A stretch of 64,000 nucleotides of DNA from NCBI GenBank assembly GCA_030429235.1, contig JAUIDB010000006.1, forward strand, positions 124,001 to 188,000. The letters run 5' to 3'. The first letter of the stretch is position 1. The number at the start of each line of letters is the position of its first letter. Source of the DNA: Thermoanaerobaculia bacterium. GTDB taxonomy: Bacteria; Acidobacteriota; Thermoanaerobaculia; Multivoradales; JAIOJS01. Made by a program: the position numbers and the translations under genes. This document shows positions 32,061 through 50,050 of this stretch, one piece after another. The notes beneath the pieces were generated by a model, which did no database searches, was not told where the DNA came from, and saw only the letters and a list, made by a program, of their open reading frames with translations.

Positions 32061-32065
32061 GCGGT

Positions 32066-32072
32066 CATAATA
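32066..32072. promoter_or_regulatory. Candidate symmetric -10 box in a 20-bp divergent gap
   Basis: CATAATA: CATAAT on +, TATTAT on -, between start codons at 32060(-) and 32081(+). Confidence 0.4.
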
Positions 32073-32080
32073 AACGCCGA

Positions 32081-35000
32081 ATGATGAGTACCGACGACGG
32101 ACCCGGGGTGCAGAGTCGGGCCGCGCGACTGGAGGAGGCGATTCGCCGGAAACGCGCCGGCAGTCGTCGCAGCCGGGAGTTGCCGACGCGCGATCGGGCC
32201 CTGCCGGCTCTCCTCGGGCCCCTGCAGAAGAGTCTGTGGTTGGCGCACCGGCTCGATCCCGACGGGGCCACGTACCACCTCGTCGACGCCTTTCGGGTGG
32301 CGGCGCCGCTCGATTTCGGGCGGCTGGATACGGCGTTCCGCGAGGTCGTGGCGCGGCACCGACTCCTCCGCTCCACATTCCAGAAGACCGAAATCGGCGT
32401 GGAGCAAGTGGTCGATGCGGTACCGCTGTCCCTCTTCGTCGTCGAGGCGACGGAAGTCGAAGTCGAAGGCTCGGCGAGGGAGGCAGCGGTGTTGCAGGCA
32501 CGGCGCCCGTTTTCGCTGGAGCGAGGCCCGCTGGTTCGCCTACTCCTGGTCGGCGACTTGCTGGTCCTGACCTTGCACCACATCCTGGCGGACGAGCTGT
32601 CGCTGGGCCTCTTGTGGCGGGATCTGGTCGCCGCCTACGAGGGACGCCCGTTGCCACCCGCGCACCTCCAGTACGACGACTACGTCGCCTGGTCGCTCGA
32701 CCGTGGCGAACGACGCCGCACCGAGATCGAGTTCTGGCGAGCTCGACTGACCCCCGTGCCCGAGCCGTTGCAGCTTCCCCTGGTGCGCCGCCAGGTCGAA
32801 CCGGGTGAGGGACGGTGGATCGAGCGTCAGCTGGCAGAGACCGCCAGCCGGGATCTCCGGCAGTTCGTGGCGGCCGTCGGCGCGACGCCCTTCCTGCTGG
32901 CTGCGTTTGCCTACCGGGTGCTCCTCGGCCGTCTGAGCGACGGACCGGGTCCCGCGATCGGCACTCCGGTGTCGACCCGAAATCACCCGGCCGTGGCCGA
33001 AATGGTGGGGTACTTCACGAACCCCTTAGTCCTTCCCGGTGCGGTGGACGAGGACTCGACGGTGGAAGACGCTCTGCGCGCGTTTGTCGCCGAGACTCGG
33101 GAACGTCTGGCGCACAGCCAGACGCCCTTCACTGACCTCGTGGAGACCTTGCAGCTTCCGAGGTCGAGCGATCGATCTCCGCTGTTTCAGACCCTGTTCG
33201 TCTACCAGCAGCCCGAGGCCGCGATCCGGTTGGAGGGCGAGCCATTGCGACCCGTCGTGCTCGACCTCGGCGTCTCGAAGTTCGACCTCACCCTGTTCGT
33301 GGCGGAGCGAGAGGGCCGGTTCGACCTCGCGGTGGAGTACCGCACCGCGCTCTACGACGTTGTAGGGATGCAGCGGTTGTTGGCGCTGTACGAGACGCTG
33401 CTGATCGATCTGGTTTCGGGCGATCGTCGCAGGCCCGTCGCTGCGCTCTCCCTCGTCCCGCCCGAAGAGTCGGCACGGCTGCGGGGTCTCGAGCGCGGCC
33501 ACGAGCTCGCTCCGGGTCCGACCACGGTGCTCGCGCAGTTCCTGCGGCAGGTCGCAACCGGCGGAGGGCGGGAGGCGGTTCGGAGCAGAAGCCAAAGCCT
33601 CGACTACCGCGAGCTGCTCGTCGCGGCCGACGAGGTCGCCGCGGCCCTCGAAGGGGTCAGTGTCGAGGTGGGGGATCGGGTGGGCCTCTATCTCGACCGC
33701 TCAGCGGCTGCGATCGCGGCGGTCCTGGGCTGCCACCTGGCGGCGACCGCTTACGTCCCGCTGGATCCGCGGTATCCGATGAGCCGCAACCACCGGATCC
33801 TGGAGGACGCTGGAGTCGTGGTGGTTCTGACCTCGGGGGCCTTGGCCGGAGAGCTTCCGGACGGCGACTGGAAGGTCCTCGCATTCGACGAGAGGCTTTC
33901 GCTCGGATTGCCGGACCGCGAGCCTGTGGCGGCGGTTCGCTCCCGTGAACCGGCTCCTGCGGACCTCGCCTACCTCCTCTACACGTCGGGTTCTTCCGGG
34001 CGGCCGAAAGGGGTCGCGGTGAGCCACGAGAACCTCGAGCGGTCGAACGCCGCCCGGCTTGCCTACTACGGCACCCGCGGGGTAGCCCCGGCGCGGTTTC
34101 TCTTGATTCCCAGCCTGGCCTTCGATAGCTCGGTGGCTGGTCTTTTCTGGATGCTCGCCAGCGGCGGAACCCTGGTCTTGCCGACGGCGGAGGAGGCCCG
34201 CGATCCTCGGGCCCTGCTCGAACTCATCGCTCGAGAGGGAGTCGATTCTCTGCTCTGCGTTCCCTCGCTCTACTCCCAGATGCTCCGTGGCTCGAGAACC
34301 GAGGCGAAGGCTACGTTGTCGACGCTGCGCACCGTGATCGTGGCTGGCGAAGCCTGCCCCTGGAGCCTGGTCGCCGAGCATCAGAACCGCTGCCCAGGGG
34401 TCCGGCTCTTCGATGAATACGGTCCGACGGAGGCCACGGTCTGGGCGTCGGTGAGCGAGCTGACGGCGATCGATCGGTCGGACTTCGGGTCCCAGGAGCC
34501 GGTGCCGATCGGAGGACCGATTCCCGGGGTGACGATCGAGTTGGTCGACAACCGGAGCCGGATCGTGCCGATCGGAGTTCCGGGGCGAGCCCTGATCGGC
34601 GGGACTACGGTGGCTCGAGGTTACTGGAATCGCCCGGATCTGACCGCGGGGAGCTTCTTGGGCCGCGACGCCGATCGGCGCTACGACACCGGGGACCGAA
34701 TGGCCTGGACCGAAGACGGTCAGCTCCTGTTTCTGGGGCGAGTCGACGAGCAGATCAAACTGCGGGGAGTTCGGATCGAGCCCGGGGAGATCGAGGCCAA
34801 CGCCCTGGAGTGGCCTGAGGTTCGGGCCGCGGCGGCGGTGGTCGCGGGTCCGGCGGGGGGAGCCGAAAGGTTGACGCTTTTCGTCGCGGGTCCGGTGCCA
34901 GAGGACTGGCGTCGCCGGATGGGCGAGCGCCTGCCGCAGGAGATGCGTCCGCACGCGGCGACCAGCCTGAGCAGCCTTCCCTTGCTGCCGAACGGCAAGA

Positions 35001-36172
35001 TCGACCGGAGCGCACTGAGGGAGCTCGCGCGCCTGGCGAGGGACGAGCGTCCCGAGCGTCCGGGAGCCCCCCGTGAGGTTCCCAACGACGAACAGCTGAG
35101 CCTCAGATCGTTGTGGCAGGGCTTGCTCGGACTCGAAACGGTCGGGTTGGACGACAACTTCTTCGAACTCGGAGGCCATTCGTTGCTGGTGGCCGAGATG
35201 ACGATGGCGATCGAAGAGGACTTCGGCGTGCGGCTCGCGGCCCAGCAGGTCTTCCAGAACCCGACGGTTCGGCAGTTGGCGGAGTTCCTCGCCGGGCGCG
35301 GTGAGCGGCGGGGCTACGAGCACCTCTTTCCGCTCCAACCGATCGGATCCGAGGCGCCCTTCATCGTCGCCATTCCCCACTTCTTCGCCGATCTCTTCGC
35401 CGACCTGTTCCGAGGGCAGCGGCCGGTCTACGGGCTGCGGGGAGTCAGCCTGCGGGTCGAGGGGAACCTAAGCCGCTGGCCGACCCTCGGCGATCTCGCC
35501 GAAGAGGTCGCCGATGAGATCTGCGATCGATTCGAGGTGGACACCCGCCCCCGGTCGGGGCGTGGCGTCTACCTGGCGGGGTACTCCTTCGGGGCCTCCA
35601 TGGCCGCGGAGACGGCCCACGTACTGGAGCGGCGCGGGGTCGTGGTGCGCGGTGTGTACCTCGTCACCCCGATGGCGCTCGACCACCTGAGCTGGGGACC
35701 GTTACGGCTCAAGATTCGCGGGTTGAAGCAACCGCTCGAGTCCCTCGGTCGGGCCGAACTGGTTCGTCGTTTCCTGGTCGATCACAACCCGCTCACGTTG
35801 CGTCCCTACCGCTACGCTTGGCGTTGGCTCAAGACCCAACCCCGGCGTCGTCTCCTCGGTCGACTGGGCCGGCTTCGGCGGAGACTCGGTCTTCCCCTGA
35901 CGCCCTCGATCCTGCACGCCGACGTGCGTGCCGACCGGTTTCGCATGCATCAGAGGTTCCGGCCGCGCCACGTAGAGGCACCGACCGTGATCTTCAACGC
36001 CGAGTTCAATGCGCTGGAGCCGGGGACCGATGCGGCCGCCACCTGGCGCTCCTGCTTCCAGGGGGATCTGGAGGTGGTAACGATCCCTGATCCTCACCTC
36101 GACGAGGGTTCGGTAGTCCGGGCGCGCGAGCTATTGCGCGAGTATCTGACGCGGCTGGAGGCCTCGGCGTGA
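32081..36172 (+). CDS. Nonribosomal peptide synthetase, C-A-T-TE
   Basis: C: HHILADE; A: LAYLLYTSGSSGRPKGVAVSHENL, FDEYGPTEATVW; T: FFELGGHSLLVAE; TE: VYLAGYSFGASMAAE with a late DPHLDE. Confidence 0.95.
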   Translation: MMSTDDGPGVQSRAARLEEAIRRKRAGSRRSRELPTRDRALPALLGPLQKSLWLAHRLDPDGATYHLVDAFRVAAPLDFGRLDTAFREVVARHRLLRSTFQKTEIGVEQVVDAVPLSLFVVEATEVEVEGSAREAAVLQARRPFSLERGPLVRLLLVGDLLVLTLHHILADELSLGLLWRDLVAAYEGRPLPPAHLQYDDYVAWSLDRGERRRTEIEFWRARLTPVPEPLQLPLVRRQVEPGEGRWIERQLAETASRDLRQFVAAVGATPFLLAAFAYRVLLGRLSDGPGPAIGTPVSTRNHPAVAEMVGYFTNPLVLPGAVDEDSTVEDALRAFVAETRERLAHSQTPFTDLVETLQLPRSSDRSPLFQTLFVYQQPEAAIRLEGEPLRPVVLDLGVSKFDLTLFVAEREGRFDLAVEYRTALYDVVGMQRLLALYETLLIDLVSGDRRRPVAALSLVPPEESARLRGLERGHELAPGPTTVLAQFLRQVATGGGREAVRSRSQSLDYRELLVAADEVAAALEGVSVEVGDRVGLYLDRSAAAIAAVLGCHLAATAYVPLDPRYPMSRNHRILEDAGVVVVLTSGALAGELPDGDWKVLAFDERLSLGLPDREPVAAVRSREPAPADLAYLLYTSGSSGRPKGVAVSHENLERSNAARLAYYGTRGVAPARFLLIPSLAFDSSVAGLFWMLASGGTLVLPTAEEARDPRALLELIAREGVDSLLCVPSLYSQMLRGSRTEAKATLSTLRTVIVAGEACPWSLVAEHQNRCPGVRLFDEYGPTEATVWASVSELTAIDRSDFGSQEPVPIGGPIPGVTIELVDNRSRIVPIGVPGRALIGGTTVARGYWNRPDLTAGSFLGRDADRRYDTGDRMAWTEDGQLLFLGRVDEQIKLRGVRIEPGEIEANALEWPEVRAAAAVVAGPAGGAERLTLFVAGPVPEDWRRRMGERLPQEMRPHAATSLSSLPLLPNGKIDRSALRELARLARDERPERPGAPREVPNDEQLSLRSLWQGLLGLETVGLDDNFFELGGHSLLVAEMTMAIEEDFGVRLAAQQVFQNPTVRQLAEFLAGRGERRGYEHLFPLQPIGSEAPFIVAIPHFFADLFADLFRGQRPVYGLRGVSLRVEGNLSRWPTLGDLAEEVADEICDRFEVDTRPRSGRGVYLAGYSFGASMAAETAHVLERRGVVVRGVYLVTPMALDHLSWGPLRLKIRGLKQPLESLGRAELVRRFLVDHNPLTLRPYRYAWRWLKTQPRRRLLGRLGRLRRRLGLPLTPSILHADVRADRFRMHQRFRPRHVEAPTVIFNAEFNALEPGTDAAATWRSCFQGDLEVVTIPDPHLDEGSVVRARELLREYLTRLEASA

Positions 36173-36978
36173 GTTGGAGGTCGATTCCGATCGAGGGAGA
36201 ACCGCGCTGGCCAGCCGGCCGGCACCTCGAACAACTGGATGCCGCGGGTGGAGTCGTGCGACCGGAGAGCGAGGAACTGGTCGAGTGGTTCGAGACCTAT
36301 CGCGGTCAGCACCGCGAACGGCTGGCCCGGGACCTGGGACTGGTGGAGCGATTCGCGACTCCGGCCGCGCGTCTTCTCGAGGTCGGAGCGTCTCCCTTTC
36401 TGCTGACCGCTGCCCTGGTTTCGGGCGACTACGAGGTGTGTGCCATCGATTTGGCTCCAGAGCGGTTTGCCTCCACGGTGGCCGAACTCGAACTCGACGT
36501 CCGGCGCTGCGACATCGAGAGGGAACCCCTTCCCGTGGCCGATGGTTCGTGCGATCTCGTACTGTTCAACGAACTCTTCGAGCATCTGCACCAGGATCCC
36601 ATCTTCGCACTGCGAGAGGTCCTTCGGGTGCTCGACTCCCAGGGTTGTCTTCTACTCTCGACGCCCAATCTACGGTCGTTTCGCGGTCTCAAGAACCTCT
36701 GGTTGCACCACCAGGCCCATGCCGTGTCAGGGGGAGTGTTCGAACAGTGGGACAAGCGGCGACGCCTCGGGCACATGGGACACGTGCGGGAGTACACCGG
36801 GTTCGAGGTCCTCGACTTTCTCGAGAGGATCGGTTTCGCGATCGATCGTTTGATCTATCGAGGGGGACACGGTCGCGGAGTCGTCGGGTGGGCGGAGAGG
36901 CTGGTACCTTCGATGCGGCCGTTCCTGACCGTGGTGGCTCGCCCTGCGGCGCGGGCGGTAGTGGAGCCAGGCTCATGA
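36169..36978 (+). CDS. SAM-dependent class I methyltransferase
   Basis: RLLEVGASPFLLTAALVSGDYEVCAIDLAPE...SCDLVLFNELFEHLHQDPIFALREVLRVLDSQGCLLLSTPN; overlaps the NRPS stop. Confidence 0.88.
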   Translation: MSWRSIPIEGEPRWPAGRHLEQLDAAGGVVRPESEELVEWFETYRGQHRERLARDLGLVERFATPAARLLEVGASPFLLTAALVSGDYEVCAIDLAPERFASTVAELELDVRRCDIEREPLPVADGSCDLVLFNELFEHLHQDPIFALREVLRVLDSQGCLLLSTPNLRSFRGLKNLWLHHQAHAVSGGVFEQWDKRRRLGHMGHVREYTGFEVLDFLERIGFAIDRLIYRGGHGRGVVGWAERLVPSMRPFLTVVARPAARAVVEPGS

Positions 36979-37877
36979 CGGGGGGTGCACGACGCGTCTT
37001 CGTGGTTGGAGTGCCGAGGTCCGGGACCACCCTGGTGCAGAGCATCCTGGCGGCGGTGCCCGGGGTGGCCTCCTGGACCGAGAGCCACTTCTTCTCCCGC
37101 CACTATCGGTGCCTTCCGGGGGCAGCATCGCGAGCCATCCTGGTACGCAATCCGGAGGAGGCACTGCGTCGCTTCCTGGCGGAGAACGGCCTGGAGCAGA
37201 CGCTGGAGGACGTGGTCTCCTCACTGGGCGATCAGGCCTTGCTGGGTCCGCCCGGTTGGCGCCAGGCCCTACTCTCGTCGAGAGTGGCGCGCGACTTCGT
37301 GCGACTCCTCGACCTCCTGGCCGAACGGCAGGGCTGTGCCGCTTGGGTCGAGAAAACTCCGGCTCACCTTCGCTTCTTGCCCTGGTTGCAGCGCGTGCTC
37401 GAACCCGGCTCGGTGTGTTTCGTGCACGTGGTGCGAGACGGTCTCGCCACGGTGGGTTCGCTCCATCGCACGTCGGCGCACTGGGAGCGCCGCTACTCGC
37501 TCGCCGAGTGCATCGAGCGCTGGAACCGCGATGTGGCTCGCTCGCTGACCCGCGCGAACGAGGACCACCCGACCGATCGTTTCCTCTTCTATGACGACCT
37601 CGTACGATCCCCGGAGGCGACCGCACGGACCCTGGTCGAGGGGCTCGGGTGGCCCTGGGAGGAGGGCATCCTGGCGCGACGTAACGGCGTCTCGGCTCGG
37701 CTCACCGCGCCGGGGGAGGAGTTCTGGAAGGCTCGAGCGGGCGAGGCGATCGCCGAAGACACCGGGGAATCCGTCCCCTTGACACCCGAGCTACGAGAAC
37801 GAGTCCTGGCGGGTCTCGACCACGAACTGCTCCCTCGCCTGCGCGCGGTGGTGGCGCGCCGGGGCCGGAACCGATGA
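36975..37877 (+). CDS. Sulfotransferase
   Basis: RVFVVGVPRSGTTLVQSIL (PAPS 5'-PSB loop) and CFVHVVRDGLATVGS. Confidence 0.88.
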   Translation: MTGGARRVFVVGVPRSGTTLVQSILAAVPGVASWTESHFFSRHYRCLPGAASRAILVRNPEEALRRFLAENGLEQTLEDVVSSLGDQALLGPPGWRQALLSSRVARDFVRLLDLLAERQGCAAWVEKTPAHLRFLPWLQRVLEPGSVCFVHVVRDGLATVGSLHRTSAHWERRYSLAECIERWNRDVARSLTRANEDHPTDRFLFYDDLVRSPEATARTLVEGLGWPWEEGILARRNGVSARLTAPGEEFWKARAGEAIAEDTGESVPLTPELRERVLAGLDHELLPRLRAVVARRGRNR

Positions 37878-38653
37878 CGCTCGCCGCGGCGGCTCCCGCG
37901 GTCTCGGTGGTGGTCCCCTTCTTCGCCAGTTCCGCCACGTTGGCCTCCTGTATCGAGTCTCTGTTGAGCCAAGGGTCGCGGGGCGTTCCGGTCGAGTTCC
38001 TGTTCATCGACAACGGTGCTCCCGACGACTCGGCGGAGATCGTCCGGGAGTACCCCGACGTGGTCCTGCTCCGCGAATCGACCCCCGGGGCCTATGCGGC
38101 GCGCAATGCCGGGTTGCGTCGAGCTCGGGCTCCGATCATCGCCTTCACCGATGCCGATTGTGTGGTGGACCAGGACTGGCTGGAGCAGATCGTCCGCGCC
38201 CTCGAGGTTCCGACCGTCGGCGTCGTGCTCGGCGCCTGCCGGTATCCCCAGCGGGCCTCCTGGGCCCTGAAGTTCCTGGCGGCGTACGAGAACGCCAAGA
38301 TCCAGTACGTTCTGGACCACTGCCCGCCGGCGTGTTTCTTCGGTTACGCGAACAACATGGCGGTTCGGGCTTCGTTGTTCGACGAGTTGGGGCCCTTTCG
38401 CGAATGGCGCCGCGCGGGAGACACCGAATTCGTGCACCGGGTGGCGGCAGAACGCCCCGATCTTCGGGTTCACTTCGATCCGGCGGTCCGGGTCACCCAC
38501 CACGAGTTTCTCTCCTTTCGAGCGCGGGCTCGAAGGCTGAACCTGTACACCGAGACCAACGCCAAGATCGATACGTTTCGCGAATTGACCTTCGGACAGC
38601 GGTTGCGGGTGCTGTCGCGATGTCGCTTGGACGGTCAGGGGAGCGGTCGCTAG
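37874..38653 (+). CDS. Family 2 glycosyltransferase
   Basis: VSVVVPFFASSATLASCIESLL...YAARNAGLRRARAPIIAFTDADCVVDQDWLEQIV. Confidence 0.88.
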   Translation: MTLAAAAPAVSVVVPFFASSATLASCIESLLSQGSRGVPVEFLFIDNGAPDDSAEIVREYPDVVLLRESTPGAYAARNAGLRRARAPIIAFTDADCVVDQDWLEQIVRALEVPTVGVVLGACRYPQRASWALKFLAAYENAKIQYVLDHCPPACFFGYANNMAVRASLFDELGPFREWRRAGDTEFVHRVAAERPDLRVHFDPAVRVTHHEFLSFRARARRLNLYTETNAKIDTFRELTFGQRLRVLSRCRLDGQGSGR

Positions 38654-41600
38654 TCGAGTTCGGAGTCGAGTTCGGCGAGGAGAGCATCTTCGGCGATCCG
38701 GGCCAGCCCGGCGAGACTGGGTTGGGCGAAGACGGTTTCCAGGGGGAGATCGAGGTCGAACTCGTCGCAGAGTCGGAGGATCATCCGCATGGCGGTGAGG
38801 GAGGTGCCGCCCAGCTCGAAGAAATCGTCGCCCCTTCCCACCTCGTCGAGAGCCAGCTCGTCGCGCCACAATCCGGCCAGGAACTCCTCGACCGGTCCCC
38901 GAGGGGGCTCGACGGGGGGGCGAGTGTGCCGTGCGGTCGGCAAGGACCAGCGACGGAGGGCCTCGAGGTCGAGCTTGCCATTGGGAGTCAGCGGTAGATC
39001 GCTCAGTTGGTGAAACTGCGCCGGGACCAGGGGGGCGGGCAGGCGTCGGCCGAGATGGCGGGCCAGCGCTGAGGTATCCACCGAGGCGTCGGCGGTGGGG
39101 ACGAGAAAAGCCTGGAGGGACTCTGGTGCCGGCCCGGACTGCGGCGCGTAGCCGACCTCCTGCAGGATGGACCGCACCCGCTCTTCGTCGATCGCGTCGT
39201 CGAGTTCCTCGAGGGCTTCGTCGCGCTTCTTGTGTCCGAGCCGCACATCCCAGCTGTACGGCAGCGCGTAGTTGTGGAACCCCCGTTCGCGCTGGTGGAC
39301 GAAGATGCCAGCGTCGTTGATCAGACAGTTGGTCGAGCGGCCGGTGTCTTCGGGGCGTACCCAGGGAACCCGCTGCTTCAGATAGGAGTAGAGCTCTTCC
39401 ATGTCGACATCGCAGTAGCGGTAGAAGTCGACGAACCGAACCCGCTCGAAGATCTCGTCGGTCGCGAACAAGCTGACGTCCAGCGTGCGGCTGACGGCAT
39501 CGGGGGTGCGGTGGTAGGCCTTGCGAGAGGCGAGTACAGCCTGGTCTACCTCCTCCGGACTCACCCGTCCGTGGCGGAACATCTCCTCGGTCAGGCGGGT
39601 TTCGAACATCTGACCGCGCGACAGGCCGGTGACGATGGCGGGGATCCCGAGTTCGTGGGCGCGACGGGTGGCGAGGGTGTAGATCGTCTTGAAACAGCCA
39701 TTGCAGACGTTCGAGAAGCGTTGCAAGCTGTCGCGGAAGATCTCGTTCATCGCGGGGGTGGTGGCGAACTCGACGTCGACTCCCAGCTGGTCGGTGACGC
39801 GCCGTATGTTCTCCTTGGCACCCTCCGAGATGAAGCCGTTGTCCAGCGTGAAGGCGTAGATCGAGTAGCCCAGATCGGCGAGTCGACAGAGAGCGTAGGT
39901 ACTGTCCTTGCCGCCGCTGTACAACATCAGACAATCCCAGGGGCCCCGGCGCTGCGCCCGGGCCTCGTCGAGATTGCTCCGCAGGTCATCCAGGGTGCGA
40001 AAGTAACCCGCCGCGTGCTCTCGGATCGACTCGTAGGAGTGGCAGAGCGAGCAGGTCCCCTCGGCGTCGAAGGTGGCACCAGGGTAGTTGGCGGGCAGTC
40101 CGCACCGCCGACAGCCCGCTCCCGGGTTCGGAGTCGGGACGCCGAGGTCGGCATCCGCCGGGCCTGGAGTGCCCACCACCAGAACCGCGCACCGCTCGAC
40201 GCCGGGGAAGGTCTCGATCAGGGTCTCGACCTCGCCCGGTTCGAGCCGAAAGCCCGCGACCTTGACCTGTCGATCGGTGCGACCGAGGTACTCGAGTTTC
40301 GTCGGGTCGACGAACCGCACCAGATCGCCAGAGCGATACCGTACCGCCGCTCCAGGCTCGGGGCCGGGAACGAACCGAGCCGCGGTCTCCTCGGGGAGCT
40401 GATGGTAGCCGCGGGCGAGTCCGTGGCGCGCGATCCACAGTTCTCCAGGAACTCCCGTCGGCACGGCCTGCCCGGCTGGGTTCAGCACCTCGATCTGGAC
40501 ATGGTCAGCCGGCCGACCGATCGGTACGGAGCCGACTCGATCGCTCGCAGGGTCGAATCGATGGACGAGACATCCGACCACTGCTTCGGTGGGTCCGTAC
40601 TCGTTGTAGATCTCGGCCGAAGGTGCGAGGCGCTCGGCGACCGCTGCCGCCAGTTCCGCGGAGAACGACTCGCCACCGACGATGAGCCGACGGACACCGG
40701 TCGCTTCGAAGCGGCCGCTCCGGAGCACGGAGAGGTGGGAGGGAGTGAGTTTCAGGAAGTCGATCTGGTTGCGTTCGACGGCGTGCAGGAACGCCTCGTC
40801 GAGCGCGCCCGCGGCGCGCGGATAGAGCTCGAGCGTTCCCCCGGTGATCAGGGGGAGGAAGAGACTCGTGACGGTGAGGTCGAAGGCCAGTGAGGTCACC
40901 AGTCCGTAGCGCAGGGCCTCGCCTCGCACGTAGGTTCGTTCGGCGAACTCGAGGTAGTCGGCCAGTCCCCGGTGTTCGATCAGCACCCCCTTGGCCCGGC
41001 CAGTCGATCCAGAGGTGTAGAGCAGATAGGCGAGATCGGTCAGGCTTGGGGGTTCCGGGGGCCGCGAGTCGTGGCCGTGGTCGAGGGCCTGACGGACGGT
41101 GGGGGGATCGAGGAGCAGCGTCGCCCCCGAGTCTTCGACCAGCTGTTTCTGGCGCTCCTCTGGATGGGCGGGGTCGATCGGCACGTAGGCGCCGCGGGCA
41201 CTGAGCACGGCCAGGATGGCAACCACGCTCTCCAAGGAACGATCCCCCAGGACGGCGACCCGGTCCCCGGGTTGGAGGTGGTGCACTCGGAGCAGGTGGT
41301 TGGCCAGGATCGCTACCTGGTCCCGGACCTGAGCGTAGTCGACGGACTGATCGACCGTGCCGTCGACCACCAGTTCCAGAGCGACGCGAGTCGGGTGTCG
41401 GTTGGCCGTGTCGAAGAAGGCGTCGACCACCGTCCGCTCGGGCGTAGGGCAACGATCGCTCTGGTTGAAACTATCGAGCTGCTGACGCTCGTCATCGGTG
41501 CGCAGGTCGATGCTGTCGATTCTCTGGTCCGGGTCGCGAAGGAGTGCCTCCACCAAGGTCTCGAAATGGTGCGGGATGCGCTCTCTCGCGGCGGCCGAAA

Positions 41601-42828
41601 GGTGCGTCCGGTTCAGGTCGAAGTCGAACTGGAAACGGCCCGAGCCCGAGAAGTCGTGGATCTGCAAGCGAAGAGCATGCAGATGATCGGCATGACCGGG
41701 ATGGAGCCAGGTCACGGCCGTAGCCGCGTCTCCGAAGCGGCCGAAACGGACGGGCAGGTAGTTCAAGACGGCTCGGCTCATCGAGTGCTCCGGAGTCGGA
41801 GCGGTCCCGGCGGCATCGCTTCGTAGGAGGTCCATTGCGCGGGCCAGGGTCTCCGCACCCAGCCGTCGGAAGGTCGTGCCTTCGGGTACCCTGGCGGCGA
41901 AGGGGAACATCTCGATAAAGAGGCCGATGGTGTCTTTGGCCTCCGGGGTAGAGCGGCCCAGGAGCGGCGTGTCGAACGAGGTCTCCGGCTCTGCACTGAT
42001 CTGGCTCAGGAAGGCGTGGAACAGGGTCGAGAAGAGGGCGAACAGGGAGAGGTGGGGAAGCACCGAGGCGAAGGGGGCCTCGGCCGCCCGCGCGCGCAGC
42101 GCCGAGGAGCGTTCCGCATCCAACTGCAGGCTCGAGCGGACGCTGGCCGTACCGCGGTGGACCGGGGACGGCCGTTCTCCGTAGAGGGTGAGCCCACCCG
42201 GGGCAGTGGTTCGGTCCGGGGTGGTGGAAGACCTGTCACTGGCCCTCGGCCCTGGCGCCAGCGCGTAGTAGCGGTCGGCCGTCACCGGCCGCGGCGCGAA
42301 CTCCGGTTGGCTCTCCAGGGCGAGGTAGCTCGCGGCCAATCGGTCGTAGAGCAGCCGAGTCGACCAGGCATCGGTGATCAGGTGGTGTTGGTTGAGGTAC
42401 CAGCCGGTCTGTCGGTTCGGAAGCCGTACCAGGACGCTGTCGACCAGCGGTCCGTCGAGGGGAAGCGGTCGAGCACAGCGCGCGCGGCCCCAGTCGAGAA
42501 AGCGCGCGACCGCATCCTCTTGGCCACTGAAGTCGGCCACGGTCAGTGCGAGTTCGGAACTCGAGAACCGCTGCAGTCGGCCTCCCGGGCCGGATCGGAA
42601 TCGAGTCTGGAGCGCTTCGCTGGAGGCGGTGACCTGGCGCCAGGCGGCTCGGAATCGCTCCGGCTCCAGCTCGTCCTCGATCACGAAGGCGAAGGCCATG
42701 TTGTAGAGCGGCGACTCGGCGTGGAGCTGCTGTCCGATGGCGATCGGAAGCTGGGCCCGCGTCAACCCGCCGGTGTCCAGTGGGCGGTCGACGGGCTCGG
42801 TCCCTGCGTCCTGCTCGCTGCGCGTCAC
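38650..42828 (-). CDS. Nonribosomal peptide synthetase, C-A(interrupted)-T, with internal PP-loop ATP-pyrophosphatase-like domain
   Basis: C: NQHHLITDAW; A: LAYLLYTSGSTGRAKGVLIEH, YNEYGPTEAVVG, KVAGFRLEPGEVE; insert: CRRC...CSLC...LMLYSGGKDSTYALC...CNGCF; A10 LPLTPNGKLD; T FFELGGTSLTAM. Confidence 0.94.
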   Translation of the reverse strand: MTRSEQDAGTEPVDRPLDTGGLTRAQLPIAIGQQLHAESPLYNMAFAFVIEDELEPERFRAAWRQVTASSEALQTRFRSGPGGRLQRFSSSELALTVADFSGQEDAVARFLDWGRARCARPLPLDGPLVDSVLVRLPNRQTGWYLNQHHLITDAWSTRLLYDRLAASYLALESQPEFAPRPVTADRYYALAPGPRASDRSSTTPDRTTAPGGLTLYGERPSPVHRGTASVRSSLQLDAERSSALRARAAEAPFASVLPHLSLFALFSTLFHAFLSQISAEPETSFDTPLLGRSTPEAKDTIGLFIEMFPFAARVPEGTTFRRLGAETLARAMDLLRSDAAGTAPTPEHSMSRAVLNYLPVRFGRFGDAATAVTWLHPGHADHLHALRLQIHDFSGSGRFQFDFDLNRTHLSAAARERIPHHFETLVEALLRDPDQRIDSIDLRTDDERQQLDSFNQSDRCPTPERTVVDAFFDTANRHPTRVALELVVDGTVDQSVDYAQVRDQVAILANHLLRVHHLQPGDRVAVLGDRSLESVVAILAVLSARGAYVPIDPAHPEERQKQLVEDSGATLLLDPPTVRQALDHGHDSRPPEPPSLTDLAYLLYTSGSTGRAKGVLIEHRGLADYLEFAERTYVRGEALRYGLVTSLAFDLTVTSLFLPLITGGTLELYPRAAGALDEAFLHAVERNQIDFLKLTPSHLSVLRSGRFEATGVRRLIVGGESFSAELAAAVAERLAPSAEIYNEYGPTEAVVGCLVHRFDPASDRVGSVPIGRPADHVQIEVLNPAGQAVPTGVPGELWIARHGLARGYHQLPEETAARFVPGPEPGAAVRYRSGDLVRFVDPTKLEYLGRTDRQVKVAGFRLEPGEVETLIETFPGVERCAVLVVGTPGPADADLGVPTPNPGAGCRRCGLPANYPGATFDAEGTCSLCHSYESIREHAAGYFRTLDDLRSNLDEARAQRRGPWDCLMLYSGGKDSTYALCRLADLGYSIYAFTLDNGFISEGAKENIRRVTDQLGVDVEFATTPAMNEIFRDSLQRFSNVCNGCFKTIYTLATRRAHELGIPAIVTGLSRGQMFETRLTEEMFRHGRVSPEEVDQAVLASRKAYHRTPDAVSRTLDVSLFATDEIFERVRFVDFYRYCDVDMEELYSYLKQRVPWVRPEDTGRSTNCLINDAGIFVHQRERGFHNYALPYSWDVRLGHKKRDEALEELDDAIDEERVRSILQEVGYAPQSGPAPESLQAFLVPTADASVDTSALARHLGRRLPAPLVPAQFHQLSDLPLTPNGKLDLEALRRWSLPTARHTRPPVEPPRGPVEEFLAGLWRDELALDEVGRGDDFFELGGTSLTAMRMILRLCDEFDLDLPLETVFAQPSLAGLARIAEDALLAELDSELD
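39118..40170 (-). other. Inserted PP-loop/CxxC domain (about aa 887-1237) within the adenylation domain
   Basis: SGGKDS encoded at 39901-39918; Cys pairs at aa 906/909, 926/929 and 1042/1045; flanked by A8 and A9/A10 motifs in one continuous frame. Confidence 0.85.
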
Positions 42829-42847: not shown

Positions 42848-43108
42848 TCAGCGAGTCGAGGCGCGCGTTCGGGCCACGTATTGCGCCAGGCTGGCGGTGG
42901 TCTGGAAGTTCTCGACCACGAAGTCTCGGGGGCCGGTGGTGATGCCGAACGTCTCGTCGACGAACCCTGCCAGGCGGAGTACCGCCACCGAGTCGAGCAG
43001 ATCGGACAGCAGGTCGTCGTCGCGATCGATGGTGACTTCGGCGGGGAGGAGCTCCTGATGTACGAAGGTGAGGATCGTCGCTTCGAGTTCTCGATTCGGC
43101 TGCGTCAT
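42848..43108 (-). CDS. Stand-alone peptidyl/acyl carrier protein
   Basis: 86 aa; DDDLLSDLLDSVAVLRLAGFVDETFGI with phosphopantetheine Ser in LLDSV. Confidence 0.85.
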   Translation of the reverse strand: MTQPNRELEATILTFVHQELLPAEVTIDRDDDLLSDLLDSVAVLRLAGFVDETFGITTGPRDFVVENFQTTASLAQYVARTRASTR

Positions 43109-44694
43109 GGTTCGGCTACCTTCTGTTCTCGAGTCTCGATCTGGCCCGAGGCCGAGAGGCTCTGGCGGTCGACCTTGCCGGTGGGGGTGCGCGGCAGCCG
43201 GTCCAGGATCTCGAGGCTCTCGGGGACGGCATAGGCCGGAAGCAGGTCCCGCAGCCGGTCGCGCAGGGCGTCCGCCGAGGTGGCTCCGCGCGAGACCACG
43301 GCGGCTCGCAAGGACAGACTCGCTTCACCGTCGGAGACGGAGTAGGCGACCGCCTCCTCCACCTCGTCGAGGTCGAGCAACGCGGCTTCGACCTCACCCA
43401 GCTCGACGCGGTGACCACGGATCTTGATCTGCAGGTCGGTCCTGGCGACGAAGGCCAGGTCGCCATTCGCCAGGGTCTGGACCTGATCCCCCGTACGAAA
43501 GTAGGTTTCTTCGAAACCTCCGCCGCTCGGCCGGCGATAGAAGGCGGTGTGGTTGCGGTCTGGGTCGTTCCAGTATCCACTCATCACCGTCGACCCACGA
43601 ATCAGGAGCTCGCCTGATGCACCTGCCGCCACCGGTTCCAGGTCGCCGTCCACCACCTCGGCGGCGGTGTGCTCGCAGGGGCGACCGATCGGCAGAGGGT
43701 CCGGGAACTCGCCGTCCGGGAGGTGGTAGTAGGTGCAGACATTGACCTCGGTCGAACCGTAGACATGGCTGAATCGCGCTTTCGGTAGGCGGCGCCGCAG
43801 TCGCTCGAGGTGCTTCCGGGGAAAGGTCTCCCCGGCGAACAGAATCCATCGGAGCGAAGCCAGATCCCTCTCCTCGAGAGCTCCCCGCAGCAACAGTTGC
43901 ACCAGAGCGGTGGGGACCGAGTACCAGACCGAGATCGCTTCGCGCTCGATCGTGAGAGACAGGCTACCCGGCAGCTTGAGCGTGGCGGGAGAGAAGAGGA
44001 CCGTCGAGGCGCCGGCGCGGGCGGCGGCGTAGTAGTCGAAGGTAGCAAAGCAGGTGTGGTGCGAAGAGTGCTGACTCAGCCGGTCCTCGGACCCCAGGTC
44101 GTAGGCCGCTACCGCCCACTCGACGAAGGCCATGGCGCTGGCATGGGTGTGGCGGATCAGTTTGGGAGTTCCGGTGGATCCGGAGGTGTGCAGGATGTAC
44201 GCCGTGTCGAGTTCGAGAACCGGGACGTCGGGTAGGCCGTCGTTCGTCTCCGCCGCTTCGACCTCCGTCCACGACGCGATCGATCGGTCGCCGATCGGGT
44301 CCACGACTCCGATGACGTGGCGCAAGGTGTGGCAACGGGCTGCGATCTCCCCGAGTCCGGCGGCCCGCTTTGGTTCGGTGACCAGGTGGGTAGCGCCCGT
44401 TGCCTCGAGGATTCTCTCGATCTGCGCCGCCGGAGACCTAGGGTCGATCGGGACCAGAGCACCCCCGGCGGCAAGCACGCCGTAGAAACTCTCGGGGACC
44501 CGCGGCCCGCGGTCGAGCAGTACGGCGACCCGTGCTTGCCGTTGCAGTCCACGCTCGAGCAGCGTGCGGGCCAGGGCACCACTTCGTCGGACGAGCTGTT
44601 GGTAGCTTCGATCACCGCCCAGGCCACGCGTGGCGATGGCGTCGGGCTGCCGGTGCGCCGCGTCCTGGATCGTCCGATGCAGTAGCCGGGTCAC
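43105..44694 (-). CDS. Stand-alone amino-acid adenylation enzyme, PltF/RedM-like
   Basis: AYILHTSGSTGTPKLIRHTH; VWYSVPTALVQLLLRG; LRWILFAGETFPRKHLERLRRRLP; VYGSTEVNVCTYYHLP; LPRTPTGKVDRQ. Confidence 0.88.
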   Translation of the reverse strand: MTRLLHRTIQDAAHRQPDAIATRGLGGDRSYQQLVRRSGALARTLLERGLQRQARVAVLLDRGPRVPESFYGVLAAGGALVPIDPRSPAAQIERILEATGATHLVTEPKRAAGLGEIAARCHTLRHVIGVVDPIGDRSIASWTEVEAAETNDGLPDVPVLELDTAYILHTSGSTGTPKLIRHTHASAMAFVEWAVAAYDLGSEDRLSQHSSHHTCFATFDYYAAARAGASTVLFSPATLKLPGSLSLTIEREAISVWYSVPTALVQLLLRGALEERDLASLRWILFAGETFPRKHLERLRRRLPKARFSHVYGSTEVNVCTYYHLPDGEFPDPLPIGRPCEHTAAEVVDGDLEPVAAGASGELLIRGSTVMSGYWNDPDRNHTAFYRRPSGGGFEETYFRTGDQVQTLANGDLAFVARTDLQIKIRGHRVELGEVEAALLDLDEVEEAVAYSVSDGEASLSLRAAVVSRGATSADALRDRLRDLLPAYAVPESLEILDRLPRTPTGKVDRQSLSASGQIETREQKVAEP

Positions 44695-44701
44695 GGGGTT
44701 C

Positions 44702-45910
44702 TCAGGGCAGGATCTTCTGCAGGGCGGGCGGAAGCGACTCGTACATCGGCACGTCGATCTCGAAGGCCCTCTCGGCGGCCCAGACCGAGGCGACCAGGAT
44801 CATGCCGGCGGCTGCGACCCGCAGGCCCCACCCTCGATAGACCGGCCAGCGCCGCACGAGGTAGAGCAGGGGTACCAGCCCGGCCACGATCACGATCTGG
44901 CCGATCTCGACCCCCAGGTTGAAGGCGAGCAGGGAGAGTCCCACGTGTTCGCTGAGAACTCCCATCTCCGAGAGCGCTCCCGCGAAACCGAAGCCGTGGA
45001 ACAGTCCGAAGCCGACCACCACCAGCCAGAGGCGTCCCCGGAAGATCGGAACGATCAGATCGGCGGCCGCGATCGCGATCGAAACGGCGATGATCACCTC
45101 CACGAGCTTGCCGGGAAGCTCGACCACCCCCAGCGAGGCCAGACTCAAGGTGAGGCTGTGGGCGACAGTAAATGCAGTGACGATCTTGACCACGTTGAGG
45201 AGAGCGGGGCCGAAGGCTTCTACCGGTTGCCAAACGCCGTCGACCCGCCGAAGCACCGCCGGAAGCAACAGCGCCGTCAGGAAGAGGATGTGGTCGATCC
45301 CCTCCCAGATGTGCTCGATGCCCAGTCCGAGGACCGCCATGAATCCCTGGAGACGGCCGTCGGTGGTGAGTTCGAACTCCTGGCGACGGTCGTCGGGGCT
45401 GAAGACCAGAGAGACTCGATTCTCGTTGGCGAAGGTCCCCGTGGCCCAGTTGTACTCGACGAGAAGAAAACCGCGGTGGTCGGGATCCTCGTCGAACAGA
45501 ACCGAGTAGTCGAAGGTCAAGGTGTCCGGGACCGAGTCGAGGCCTTCCAGGGAGAACGAGAGCAGCGCGAATCCCTCCGAGACCGCCAGGACTTCGCTGT
45601 CGGTGAACCGCATCGGCAGCCGAGTTCCCTGGTGCTCGATACGGACCTTCTGTCGGTAGTACTCCTGCAGGAAGCCGACGTGCTGCGGGAAGTTCTCTGC
45701 CGTGATCTCGTCCTCGGTGCCGCTGAGTCCCAGGGCAGGGTTGAGGTTCTCGAGAGCGATCTCGAACCGTCCCGTCACGGAGTCCTGCTGGATCTGCAGG
45801 TAGAGATAACTCTCTCCCACGTTGTGCGCTTGCAGCGAGGTCGAGGTCAGGAAGACGAGAAGAGCCGAGCAGATCCAGGCAGCGAGGCGGCGGTCGTACA
45901 GTCGTGTCAT
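44702..45910 (-). CDS. HupE/UreJ-like membrane protein
   Basis: Signal peptide, soluble N-terminal domain, then GIEHIWEGIDHILFLTALLL...FTVAHSLTLSLASLGV...FGLFHGFGFAGAL. Confidence 0.82.
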   Translation of the reverse strand: MTRLYDRRLAAWICSALLVFLTSTSLQAHNVGESYLYLQIQQDSVTGRFEIALENLNPALGLSGTEDEITAENFPQHVGFLQEYYRQKVRIEHQGTRLPMRFTDSEVLAVSEGFALLSFSLEGLDSVPDTLTFDYSVLFDEDPDHRGFLLVEYNWATGTFANENRVSLVFSPDDRRQEFELTTDGRLQGFMAVLGLGIEHIWEGIDHILFLTALLLPAVLRRVDGVWQPVEAFGPALLNVVKIVTAFTVAHSLTLSLASLGVVELPGKLVEVIIAVSIAIAAADLIVPIFRGRLWLVVVGFGLFHGFGFAGALSEMGVLSEHVGLSLLAFNLGVEIGQIVIVAGLVPLLYLVRRWPVYRGWGLRVAAAGMILVASVWAAERAFEIDVPMYESLPPALQKILP

Positions 45911-45994: not shown

Positions 45995-47137
45995 TCAGCC
46001 GAGTCCGCGGAGGCCAGCGATCAGGTTGCGTTGGATCTCCGAGGTGCCGACGTAAAGAGTCGTGGCCAACGCGTCCCGGAGTTCGCGCTCGATCTCGTAG
46101 TCGACCATATAACCGTACCCCCCGAAGAGTTGGATTGCATCTCGACAGGTGGCGACGTAGGCCTCGCTGACGGCGAGTTTGGCCAGCGCCGATTCGCGGG
46201 TCACCGAGCCCTTCGATCCCTGGGCCCAGGCGGCCCGATAGAGCAGGAGACGGGCGGCCTCGAGACGGAGCTCCATGTCGGCCACACGATGCGACACTCC
46301 CTGGTACCGACCGATCGGCCCCTTTCCGGTATCGCGGGAGCGCGCGTGCCGGACGCAGCGCTCGAGGAGTCGCTCCATGACCCCGACCGCGGGAGCCATC
46401 ACCAGGAGCCGCTCGACATCCATGGTGTGGGTGAACAACATCGCACCGGAACCCACCTCCCCGAGAAGGGCATCGGCCGGGAGACGGCAGCGGTCGAGGA
46501 AAACTTGCGCCACCGGACTCGTGCGGAGCCCCATCTTGGCCATCGACGGTCCGACCGACAGTCCCTGGGTGTCGGCGGGGACGAGAAAGGCGGACAGACC
46601 GGTGAAGCCCTCGCCCGTCCGGGCGTAAACCACGAACAGGTCGGCGATCGGTGCGTTGGTCACGAAGGTCTTGGAGCCATCGAGCTCCCAGCAGTCTCCC
46701 TCTCTCTTCGCCACCATGGAGAGTCCGAGGGCGTTCGATCCGCTGTCCGGCTCGGTAACGGCGGTGGCTCCGATCACCACCCCGTCGACCATTCCGGACA
46801 ACCACTGGGCTCTCTGGGCCTCGGTTCCCGCCTCGATGAGGGGAACGGTGCAGGAAGCGACGTGCGCCGCCACCGAGAAGACGAGTCCGTTGTCGGCCGC
46901 ACCGTAACCGAGGCCTTCGAAGACAGCCACGGCGGTTAACAGGTCCTGGCCAGCACCATGCCAGGTCTCGGGGGTCAGAAGTCCTTGCAGTCCGAACTGG
47001 GCACAGGCGTTCCACAGTTCGCGCGAGAACTGTTGGTCTCGGTCGCGCTCGATCACTCCGTCCGCCAGGCGCTCGGCGGCGAAGTCGGCTGCGCCCTGCT
47101 TGAGCGCTCGCTGTTCGTCGGTCCAATCGAAGTGCAC
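45995..47137 (-). CDS. Acyl-CoA dehydrogenase family protein, PltE/RedW (prolyl-PCP dehydrogenase)-like
   Basis: NGLVFSVAAHVASCTVPLIEAGT, TKTFVTNAPIADLFVVYA-type segment, VSHRVADMELRLEAARLLLYRAAW, QLFGGYGYMVDYEIERELRDALATTLYVGTSEIQ. Confidence 0.88.
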   Translation of the reverse strand: MHFDWTDEQRALKQGAADFAAERLADGVIERDRDQQFSRELWNACAQFGLQGLLTPETWHGAGQDLLTAVAVFEGLGYGAADNGLVFSVAAHVASCTVPLIEAGTEAQRAQWLSGMVDGVVIGATAVTEPDSGSNALGLSMVAKREGDCWELDGSKTFVTNAPIADLFVVYARTGEGFTGLSAFLVPADTQGLSVGPSMAKMGLRTSPVAQVFLDRCRLPADALLGEVGSGAMLFTHTMDVERLLVMAPAVGVMERLLERCVRHARSRDTGKGPIGRYQGVSHRVADMELRLEAARLLLYRAAWAQGSKGSVTRESALAKLAVSEAYVATCRDAIQLFGGYGYMVDYEIERELRDALATTLYVGTSEIQRNLIAGLRGLG

Positions 47138-47222: not shown

Positions 47223-49256
47223 TCAAGGTGCGTCGGGACGGGGAGGCTCTCCCTCGACCAGAAGGACGCGGTCGAAGGCGACGGCGAGAGTCCGCTCGTC
47301 CTCCGCGGCCGGATCCAGGTCGCGCGGAGACTGGACCCAGTCGAAGGTGAACTCGAGGTGGTCGATCTCCTCGTCGCTTCGGTAGGGACCGAGGGTGAGC
47401 TGGTTCCAGCCCGGTTCCAGGGTGACGCTGCCGACCGGTTGCCCGTGGACCGAGAGGTGCAGGCGTTGAGGTGGTCGGTGGTCGGTGGGAAAGGGTCTCA
47501 ACCAGAGTCTCAGGTGCCGCGTCGGGTTGGGCCCCGTGGCGACCAGCGCGAGTTCAGCTCGAGAGTCGGCGGCCCAACGAAAGGTGCGACCCTCGGGTTC
47601 TCGTTCTGCGACCGACCACCCCGGGCCGAGCCACGATGCGTCTTCGGAGAAGTCCTGGACTCCGGGGACGTATCCGAGCTGCGCGAGCATCGGAGCGAGG
47701 GGGGACTGAGTCGATCGCGGCGAGACGAGGGTGGCAAAGTCGGGCCAGTAGTAGAGGCGTAGATTGGCGCGCTCACGACGTAGGACCGGGTGCAGCGTCG
47801 CTGTCCACTCGTCGAGCCAAGGCGCGTGGTGGTAGCCCGCACTGAGGAAAAATCCACCGCGGTGGCTCTGGAGGGCGGAGCGAGCACTGGCCTCGGAGAA
47901 GTTGGTCGCCACCAACTCCACTTCGTGTCCGAGCTCGTCGAGGTAGTAGCCGAGGCAGTCGAAGGACCACTCCTCTCGGGTCACGACCACCTCGTCGGGA
48001 CCCGTCCAGGTTCCCACCAGGTCGGCAACCTCGCGCCACGGCGGTTTGTTCCACGGTTCCTTGCGAGCGGCGGTCCAGCCAGGAACGAGGAGGAGTCCGA
48101 GTACGGCCAGTGAGAACACGGTGCTGACCCAGGCCGGGGGGAGGGGAGTTGGCTCGCCCCGGACCTGCCGCCGTCGTACCCAGGATGCCGCCCACGGCCC
48201 GGCCTGACAGGCTCCCACCGCGACCAGGATCAGAAAGGCCGGTAGACCGCTGGAGGTGTAGCGGACGTTGTACCAGTGGTCGAACCGATGGAGGGCGGCC
48301 AGCCAGCCGCAGACCGGCAGGAGCCAGAGCCCGAGCAGCCAGAGCGCGGCCCGGGGCTGCGTTCGCAGCAAGAATCCTGCGCCGGAGACGGCGAACAGGA
48401 GTGCGATCCAGCTCACATAGTTGGTGGTGCCAGAGTCCAGGCCCGACACGGTGAAGCTGGCAGCCAGTCGGTCGAGAGCTTCCGGCGACAGGGGACGCGT
48501 GATCTCGAGACCGGCACTGTGTTCCCTGCGTTCCGTGGAGTCGCCGCTGACTCGGTCGATTCCTTGGACGGTCGGAAAGAGCATCGGGAGCACGCAGAGC
48601 GCCAGACCGGCGGCCAGGACGAGGGAACCTCGACCCACCAGACCTCCCTGGAATCTTGACCAGTACCAGTCACAGATCGCGAGCAGGAGAAAAGCGATCA
48701 GTAGCGGAGCCCCGATCGCACCGCAGTAGACGATGGCCAGGCAAGCCGGAAAGACGAAGATCCGGGCCCACCGCCGCTCCGCCAGCAGGGCGAGGAGGAT
48801 CAGGACGGCGGCCCCCAGCATCACGGCGGAGTAGGGCCTACCCTCTCGCGAGTAGTACACGTGGAGGGGCGAGACCGCGATCAACAGGGCGGCGGCGAGT
48901 CCGATCCAGCGGTTGCGGGTTGTCGCCGTCGCGGCCAACCCGAGCCCGAGGACACCGAACAGGCCGGCGATGGCCGGGGCGAGCCGTACTCCGAACTCCC
49001 CCTCGGCGAAGTGCAGCGACAGGACCTGCAGAGCGTAGTACAGAGGACCGTTCTCGCGATCGACCGGGAGGCCGGTGAACCATCCCCACCAGGACGTGGC
49101 CCCAGACATGGCTTCGCGGGCACGATTGACGTGCAGGACCTCGTCGTACCAAAGCGATGGTTCGGCGAGACCATCGAAGCGTAGGAACAGGGCTACCCCA
49201 CCAACTCCGACGAGCCCTACCAGCCAAAGGAGGTCCACCCTCTTGCGCCACGGCAC
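47223..49256 (-). CDS. GT39-like integral membrane glycosyltransferase
   Basis: LRFDGLAEPSLWYDEVLHVNRARE; GLAATATTRNRWIGLAAALLIAVSPLHVYYSREGRPYSAVML; many TM helices. Confidence 0.78.
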   Translation of the reverse strand: MPWRKRVDLLWLVGLVGVGGVALFLRFDGLAEPSLWYDEVLHVNRAREAMSGATSWWGWFTGLPVDRENGPLYYALQVLSLHFAEGEFGVRLAPAIAGLFGVLGLGLAATATTRNRWIGLAAALLIAVSPLHVYYSREGRPYSAVMLGAAVLILLALLAERRWARIFVFPACLAIVYCGAIGAPLLIAFLLLAICDWYWSRFQGGLVGRGSLVLAAGLALCVLPMLFPTVQGIDRVSGDSTERREHSAGLEITRPLSPEALDRLAASFTVSGLDSGTTNYVSWIALLFAVSGAGFLLRTQPRAALWLLGLWLLPVCGWLAALHRFDHWYNVRYTSSGLPAFLILVAVGACQAGPWAASWVRRRQVRGEPTPLPPAWVSTVFSLAVLGLLLVPGWTAARKEPWNKPPWREVADLVGTWTGPDEVVVTREEWSFDCLGYYLDELGHEVELVATNFSEASARSALQSHRGGFFLSAGYHHAPWLDEWTATLHPVLRRERANLRLYYWPDFATLVSPRSTQSPLAPMLAQLGYVPGVQDFSEDASWLGPGWSVAEREPEGRTFRWAADSRAELALVATGPNPTRHLRLWLRPFPTDHRPPQRLHLSVHGQPVGSVTLEPGWNQLTLGPYRSDEEIDHLEFTFDWVQSPRDLDPAAEDERTLAVAFDRVLLVEGEPPRPDAP

Positions 49257-49309
49257 GTCGTGAGCTTACACGGACCCGTAGGCCCCTCGCCTCGAGGCAC
49301 AATAGGCCG

Positions 49310-50050
49310 ATGGAGGTCGAAGTCTGGCGCATCGGTCTAGGGGCGGAAGTCGCCGTCGACAGGGCGACGGTTGCCGTACCCTCGGCAACGGACGTCGAGT
49401 TCGTTCCGATCGACCTCGACGATTGGTCCGAGCGCGTGCTCTCCGGCCACGAGCAGGCTCGGGCTCGTCGTCTGAGAACGGCCGACCTGCGACGCCGTTT
49501 CGTTCGCGTGCACGGGAGTCTCCGCGCAATTCTGGCTCGCTACTTGCGTCTTGCGCCGGAGGCAGTCGAGCTGGTGGCGGATCAGGGTTCGAAACCTCGG
49601 CTGTCGGAGTCACACCCTCCACTTCGCTTCAATCTCAGTCACTCGCGCGATCTGGCCCTGCTGGCGGTGCATCGCCACCTAGAGGTAGGTGTCGATGTCG
49701 AGTGGCACGATCCCACGACGGAAACCGGCCGGTTGGCAGCACGTTTTTTTGGGGCCGAGGAGCAGGGGTACGCGGCGCAGGCGGCCGAGGGCCTGAACGC
49801 CATCGCGGCGACGGAGGCGCGCCGGGCCGAGTTCTTTCGCCTCTGGACGCTGCGTGAGGCCTATCTGAAGGGGTTGGGGCTGGGTCTCAGCGTTCCGTTG
49901 ACCGGGTTTGCCGTGTCGGGCCCAAATGTCGTGCCTCCCCGCCTACTGCGGAGCGACTACGGCGATCCCGGCGCCTGGAATCTGGCGAGCTTCGTTCCCC
50001 GCGTGGGATACAGCGCAGGGTTGGCGGTTGCGCAGCCGGCCGCGATCTAG
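49310..50050 (+). CDS. Sfp-type 4'-phosphopantetheinyl transferase
   Basis: KPRLSESHPPLRFNLSHSRDLALLAVHRHLEVGVDVEWHD...FFRLWTLREAYLKGLGLGL. Confidence 0.93.
   Translation: MEVEVWRIGLGAEVAVDRATVAVPSATDVEFVPIDLDDWSERVLSGHEQARARRLRTADLRRRFVRVHGSLRAILARYLRLAPEAVELVADQGSKPRLSESHPPLRFNLSHSRDLALLAVHRHLEVGVDVEWHDPTTETGRLAARFFGAEEQGYAAQAAEGLNAIAATEARRAEFFRLWTLREAYLKGLGLGLSVPLTGFAVSGPNVVPPRLLRSDYGDPGAWNLASFVPRVGYSAGLAVAQPAAI

Follow-up and report, generated by a model that had tools for sequence, protein, structure and literature searches.

An adenylation (A) domain of a nonribosomal peptide synthetase (NRPS) from a Thermoanaerobaculia bacterium is interrupted by a PP-loop domain of the AANH superfamily, which carries seven invariant cysteines and recurs in frame, at the same place, in NRPSs of 11 phyla. 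We propose that this insert is an in-line, ATP-dependent thioamide synthetase of the iron-sulfur type that would act on an asparagine residue bound to the adjacent thiolation (T) domain, with the side chain as the more likely target. We give this assignment a slightly better than even chance of being right.

An adenylation domain interrupted by a PP-loop domain

The window, by which we mean the whole 64,000-nucleotide stretch analyzed, contains the NRPS gene as a single stop-free frame of 1392 aa on the minus strand (38650 to 42828), just as the original prediction had claimed. The open frame and Pfam give the order condensation (C), A, insert, resumed A subdomain (Asub), and T. The C domain (aa 22 to 333; 41830 to 42765, minus strand; PF00668) bears the motif NQHHLITDAWS. 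It is followed by an adenylation core that runs through and past motif A8 (aa 471 to 895; 40144 to 41418, minus strand; PF00501, TIGR01733, and the alignment with LgrA), within which the Pfam AMP-binding match spans aa 471 to 809. The A8 stretch KVAGFRLEPGEVETLIETFPGVERCAVLVV sits N-terminal to the insert, and Asub with A10, followed by the T domain, lies C-terminal to it. The A8 motif KVAGFRLEPGEVE is separated from the resumed subdomain by approximately 320 aa that match TIGR03573, the N-acetyl sugar amidotransferase (NASAT) family. The insert itself occupies aa ~906 to 1226 (39151 to 40113, minus strand), as delimited by TIGR03573 (aa 906 to 1223), the AlphaFold model, and Foldseek; the region first proposed, 39118 to 40170, corresponds correctly to aa 887 to 1237. 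The A subdomain resumes at aa 1236 to 1285 (38974 to 39123, minus strand) with A10 as LPLTPNGKLD, where the tail half alone of the AMP-binding_C profile (PF13193, profile positions 27 to 76) matched, below threshold. The frame ends in a T domain (aa 1316 to 1377; 38698 to 38883, minus strand; PF00550) with the motif FFELGGTSL. A predicted catalytic domain lies inside the A domain, between A8 and A9/A10, and the A domain resumes after it, which is the architecture of an interrupted A domain. Pfam, TIGR03573, and the fold model all support the predicted interruption by an ATP-pyrophosphatase-type PP-loop domain between A8 and A9/A10.

All of the motifs quoted in the original prediction were found within the insert. 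These are the tetracysteine C906-x2-C909...C926-x2-C929 (40042 to 40113), the PP-loop SGGKDS (aa 971 to 976; 39901 to 39918), the pair C1042-N-G-C1045 (39694 to 39705), and C1168 in RSTNC (39325 to 39327), all on the minus strand. SGGKDS and all seven cysteines are invariant in 81 aligned inserts. With its SGGxDS PP-loop and Rossmann-like fold, the insert belongs to the AANH/PP-loop superfamily. Its AlphaFold model has a mean pLDDT of 92.7, and the top solved match by Foldseek was the NASAT 8wex (E 1.7e-10; TM 0.61 by query), followed by [4Fe-4S] LarE (8cp4/8cnz), YcfA, and [4Fe-4S] TtuA. Modeling therefore upheld the predicted PP-loop fold. The isolated insert scored 114 bits (E 9e-33) against TIGR03573, short of the curated cut-off of 203.2 bits. 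C906, C909, C926, and C929 fit the NASAT zinc tetracysteine, CXXCXn[GN]XCXXC (PMC10607449), and would form a structural zinc site. Together, the TIGR03573 match and the fold model bear out the suggestion that the N terminus of the insert is WbpG/NASAT-like.

The A domain around the insert looks intact, since a model of A, insert, and T aligns along its length with thiolation-state EntF and LgrA and with TioS (5wmm), whose A domain is interrupted by a methylation domain. This model had a pLDDT of 86.5 and a pTM of 0.61, at which the relative placement of the insert and the T domain is unreliable. In the protein sequence, the motifs for adenylation and for tailoring are both intact. The ten-residue specificity code, read by hand, is DLTKIGEVGK, and its recognizable positions recur in nearly all homologues. 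We take this to be an asparagine code from established knowledge of A-domain codes, and the interrupted A domain is predicted to select asparagine.

Distribution and gene neighborhoods of the insert

We scanned one genome per species across 85,462 species and obtained 174 candidates, from which 80 loci were kept. These 80 further loci represent 11 phyla and share 55 to 73% identity over the insert. A protein search found a single copy of the domain in the source genome. Within the source order, a full or truncated copy was present in 17 of 72 genomes, in frames of 1197 to 2573 aa except for two contig-end fragments. Where the frame reached far enough upstream of the insert (70 aa or more), motif A8 was present in 78 of 78 loci; A10 was present in 78 of 78 that reached far enough downstream, and the T domain in 77 of 77 with sufficient sequence. 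These counts come from regular expressions with the misses read by eye; the misses were motif variants, not absences. The domain lies ~33 to 51 aa past A8 and 45 to 69 aa ahead of A10. In two loci (L022 and L032) the frame starts just 67 to 85 aa ahead of the insert, possibly owing to frameshifts. The matches L014, L016, and L017 (680 to 692 aa) are partial and cover the zinc and PP-loop part only. Some of the loci are from genomes of isolates, and one (L073) is on a complete plasmid. Thus, other NRPSs do carry the insert, a check that the original prediction had called for, and the 80 loci with the same junctions contradict the assembly join that it had named as grounds for refutation. Because the insert is in frame and at the same place in so many genomes, it is not an assembly join. 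Apart from novelty, nothing favors either such a join or a passenger domain without function, and with the catalytic residues invariant across 11 phyla we consider both extremely unlikely.

At the source locus, four genes lie upstream of the NRPS and in the same direction (minus strand). They encode an 86-aa stand-alone peptidyl carrier protein (42848 to 43108; PF00550), a stand-alone adenylating ligase of the prolyl type (43105 to 44694; PF00501/TIGR01733; hand-read code DYAYLAVVCK), a HupE/UreJ-family membrane protein (44702 to 45910; PF13795), and an acyl-coenzyme A (CoA)-dehydrogenase-fold enzyme (45995 to 47137). The best stand-alone-ligase match of the ligase in the PDB is the L-prolyl-carrier ligase 6o6e. 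By NCBIfam, the dehydrogenase is closest to the prolyl-PCP dehydrogenases PigA/RedW, with scores of 371 and 369 bits that fall under the cut-offs of 500 and 650. A 4'-phosphopantetheinyl transferase (PPTase) gene is on the plus strand (49157 to 50050; PF01648). Also on the plus strand, a second NRPS with the order C-A-T-TE (31931 to 36172; Pfam) probably provides a later module and release, and methyltransferase, sulfotransferase, and family-2 glycosyltransferase genes (36169 to 38653; Pfam) are probable later tailoring genes. Two other loci (L021 and L023) have a similar NRPS in the same relative position, and because of this similar arrangement the convergent block from 31931 to 38653 probably belongs to the same cluster. 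The same two loci have a large protein upstream of the dehydrogenase, in the position at which the window encodes a 677-aa protein (47223 to 49256) that matched no Pfam family and matched TIGR03663 weakly. Elsewhere in the window, a 2-thiouracil desulfurase-type gene (57984 to 59012; PF04463 with DUF1722) has photolyase and B12-binding MerR regulator genes as neighbors and looks unrelated to the cluster.

Neighbors were counted in the 56 loci whose upstream flank spans 9 kb or more. A dehydrogenase of the same fold was found in 48, a prolyl-type ligase in 41, a HupE/UreJ-family gene in 32, an ornithine-cyclodeaminase-like gene in 25, and a TonB-type receptor in 15, the last two being named by eye from sequence. 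These neighbors suggest that a pyrrole-2-carboxyl or dehydroprolyl donor is coupled to the asparagine residue. The HupE/UreJ permease and TonB receptors hint at a metal-binding product, which we treat as a lead only. Several hosts are Leptolyngbya or Adonisia, and we considered a link to the metallophores leptochelin and lusichelin; for lusichelin it was rejected, as the lusichelin paper shows none of the expected features.

In rhizobia and some Gemmatimonadota (L061, L049, L060, L068, L070, L077, and L089), a four-gene version consists of a PPTase, a thioesterase, the A(insert)-T protein, and a dehydrogenase. It has no C domain and no prolyl ligase, and its insert keeps the same invariant residues and its A domain is of the asparagine type. 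One dehydrogenase partner common to all loci was considered and rejected, since the rhizobial enzyme belongs to another subfamily (29% identity; NCBIfam). The four-gene operons bear on which carbonyl would be attacked. If the insert thioamidated the new pyrrolyl-asparagine amide, it would act as CtaC does on a peptide backbone (PMC6772006), and most clusters have the C domain and the genes for an acyl donor that such a role would call for. However, operons that dispense with both the C domain and the acyl ligase retain the residues of the insert and the asparagine-type A domain, and a backbone target appears quite unlikely to us. The invariant residues and the asparagine code are shared by copies that have a C domain and those that lack one, which makes the side-chain carboxamide the likelier target.

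Two Streptomyces plasmids carry related proteins in other settings. In one (L099; NZ_CP108680.1, 14947 to 17127), a 45% identical domain is fused before a condensation domain and is not within an A domain; its cluster includes an adjoining A-T protein, asnB, and a tyrosine 2,3-aminomutase. The other (L100; NZ_CP107890.1, 7704 to 8852) encodes an unannotated 382-aa AANH protein with the three cysteines described below, beside an acyl carrier protein and a ketosynthase, and this protein is possibly a thiotemplated sulfur insertase.

The cysteine triad and the candidate chemistry

C1042, C1045, and C1168 form a CxxC pair plus a later cysteine, the sequence motif of the [4Fe-4S] sulfur insertases LarE, TtuA, TtcA, and CtaC. 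We regard this triad as a putative [4Fe-4S] site. Comparison of the insert with LarE-type proteins of the phylum by hhalign gave 97.9% probability (E 6e-13) and superposed the CxxC pairs, which lie at +71/+74 from SGG in the insert and at +70/+73 in the LarE-type proteins. A profile search likewise reached mmLarE-[4Fe-4S] (PDB 8cnz; E 4e-9) across the CxxC. The third cysteine falls beyond the aligned block, 197 residues past SGG versus 150 in LarE, which counts against a thioamide reading. The triad was absent from all 14 NASATs of the phylum that scored above the cut-off and could be read, and from LpNASAT (8wex, by its alignment to the protein L102). In a tree, the triad-bearing proteins (the inserts and three non-inserted homologues) split from the NASATs with an SH-aLRT of 85, which we take as moderate support because several branches are long.

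The protein L102 (CP049031.1, 1504 to 2709) is annotated as a NASAT and lies beside hisH and hisF, yet, in contrast to the other NASATs that could be read, it has a CxxC and a third cysteine at the triad positions. Since its cysteines align with those of the insert, the triad is not exclusive to sulfur transfer, and its use as a clean marker of sulfur transfer is weakened.

Of the four outcomes named in the original prediction (amidation or thioamide, amidine, or nitrile formation), we favor thio transfer on the basis of sequence, because the invariant triad has its counterpart in [4Fe-4S] sulfur insertases, and nearly all sugar amidotransferases are without it. Counting against this is that NASAT, a nitrogen-installing enzyme, is both the nearest family and the best fold match. 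The insert could accordingly be an amidine synthetase that works like a NASAT, adenylating the carboxamide and exchanging the oxygen for nitrogen; such an amidine, if formed on an N-acyl-asparagine, could close to an aminopyrimidine ring. The zinc tetracysteine common to the insert and NASATs fits this chemistry, as does the position of the triad-bearing L102 next to hisH and hisF. However, 114 bits is far under the family cut-off, the readable NASATs above it have no triad, and the CxxC of the insert aligns with sulfur insertases. Furthermore, no HisH/HisF-type ammonia source recurs among the neighbors within 10 kb of the loci. We therefore judge an amidine product unlikely, though a serious alternative.

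A nitrile would arise if the primary carboxamide of T-bound asparagine were adenylated and dehydrated to beta-cyanoalanine in the manner of QueC. Asparagine does have a primary amide, and we observed a weak QueC match in Pfam (E 2.5e-5; 24.3 bits, barely above the cut-off of 22) and a very weak match to a PDB entry named "nitrile synthetase" (E 0.25). However, the QueC match is confined to the PP-loop region, and dehydration has no obvious need for a conserved [4Fe-4S]-type triad. Nitrile formation is improbable.

The thioamide assignment, which we prefer, is drawn by analogy with CtaC and [4Fe-4S] LarE. CtaC thioamidates a carrier-bound substrate using ATP and a three-cysteine [4Fe-4S] cluster (PMC6772006), and in [4Fe-4S] LarE the nucleophile toward the adenylated substrate is a sulfide bound to the open iron (PMC9283937). 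In our scheme, the A domain would select asparagine and load it onto the T domain next to it. The C domain, where the pathway is complete, would couple it to a proline-derived acyl group, pyrrole-2-carboxyl or dehydroprolyl, delivered by the neighboring ligase, carrier protein, and dehydrogenase. The loaded T domain would present the residue to the insert, where ATP would bind at SGGKDS and a carboxamide oxygen would be adenylated. A [4Fe-4S] cluster held by C1042, C1045, and C1168 would carry a sulfide on its open iron, and this sulfide would displace AMP to give the thioamide. Against this scheme, the clusters show no recurrent gene for a sulfur donor; the CtaC gene cluster has no sulfur-mobilizing gene either (PMC6772006).

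Meaning and comparison with known systems

Interrupted A domains and thiotemplated AANH enzymes are both known, and what appears new is a PP-loop insert among them. No such insert appears in the reviews of interrupted A domains that were consulted or in the open-access literature searched, an absence that is no proof; this agrees with the original prediction, to which no ATP pyrophosphatase within an A domain was known. More broadly, these loci may form an NRPS lineage that is widespread yet seems to have escaped description, with an in-line PP-loop domain of the Fe-S type turning the side-chain amide of carrier-bound asparagine into a thioamide, mostly joined to a proline-derived pyrrole, with the HupE/UreJ permease and TonB receptors of the clusters hinting at a metal-binding product. 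We offer this whole picture tentatively and hold it to be doubtful in its entirety. Thioamides are exceedingly rare in nonribosomal peptides (PMC6772006). A domain that is embedded, recognizable from sequence, and apparently tied to one amino acid offers a simple handle for finding such compounds in ordinary bacteria of eleven phyla, and the cultured hosts include Leptolyngbya, Bradyrhizobium, Microvirga, Lewinella, and Algoriphagus. Interrupted A domains would gain a new reaction class, and NRPS engineering a portable thiolation or amidination unit. The four-gene rhizobial operon is a minimal system in which the chemistry is directly testable.

The known interrupted A domains, such as TioS, KtzH, and McyA, likewise have a tailoring domain between A8 and A9 and act in-line on the T-bound residue, as we propose here; in-line catalysis by the methylating ones is T dependent (PMC11355689). 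Their inserts, in contrast, are methyltransferases, ketoreductases, oxidases, or monooxygenases (PMC11355689, PMC8097286, PMC8949500). NASATs (TIGR03573, WbpG, and LpNASAT 8wex) share the zinc tetracysteine, the PP-loop, and the overall fold with the insert. Unlike it, they are stand-alone sugar enzymes that score above 203 bits, often lie beside HisH/HisF, and in nearly all cases do not have the three-cysteine triad. [4Fe-4S] LarE, TtuA, and TtcA share the PP-loop, as does YcfA, and the first three also have a CxxC in the equivalent position together with a third cysteine. They perform ATP-dependent oxygen-to-sulfur exchange, the kind of reaction proposed for the insert. However, these sulfur insertases act on nucleotide, tRNA, or cofactor substrates, do not have the NASAT zinc module, and occur outside NRPSs.

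CtaC, the thioamide synthetase of closthioamide, is set beside the insert by its published description. Both are AANH superfamily proteins with an ATP-binding PP-loop, two nearby cysteines, and one later cysteine. Both belong to thiotemplated pathways whose clusters have no sulfur-mobilizing gene, and the substrate is carrier bound in CtaC and proposed to be so for the insert. A trans homologue (P0008) beside ACP/KAS genes also bears the triad. CtaC differs in that it is stand-alone, works in trans on a beta-alanine backbone, and is found mostly in anaerobes, whereas the insert is embedded in an asparagine-type A domain, has a NASAT-type zinc site, and occurs mostly in other phyla.
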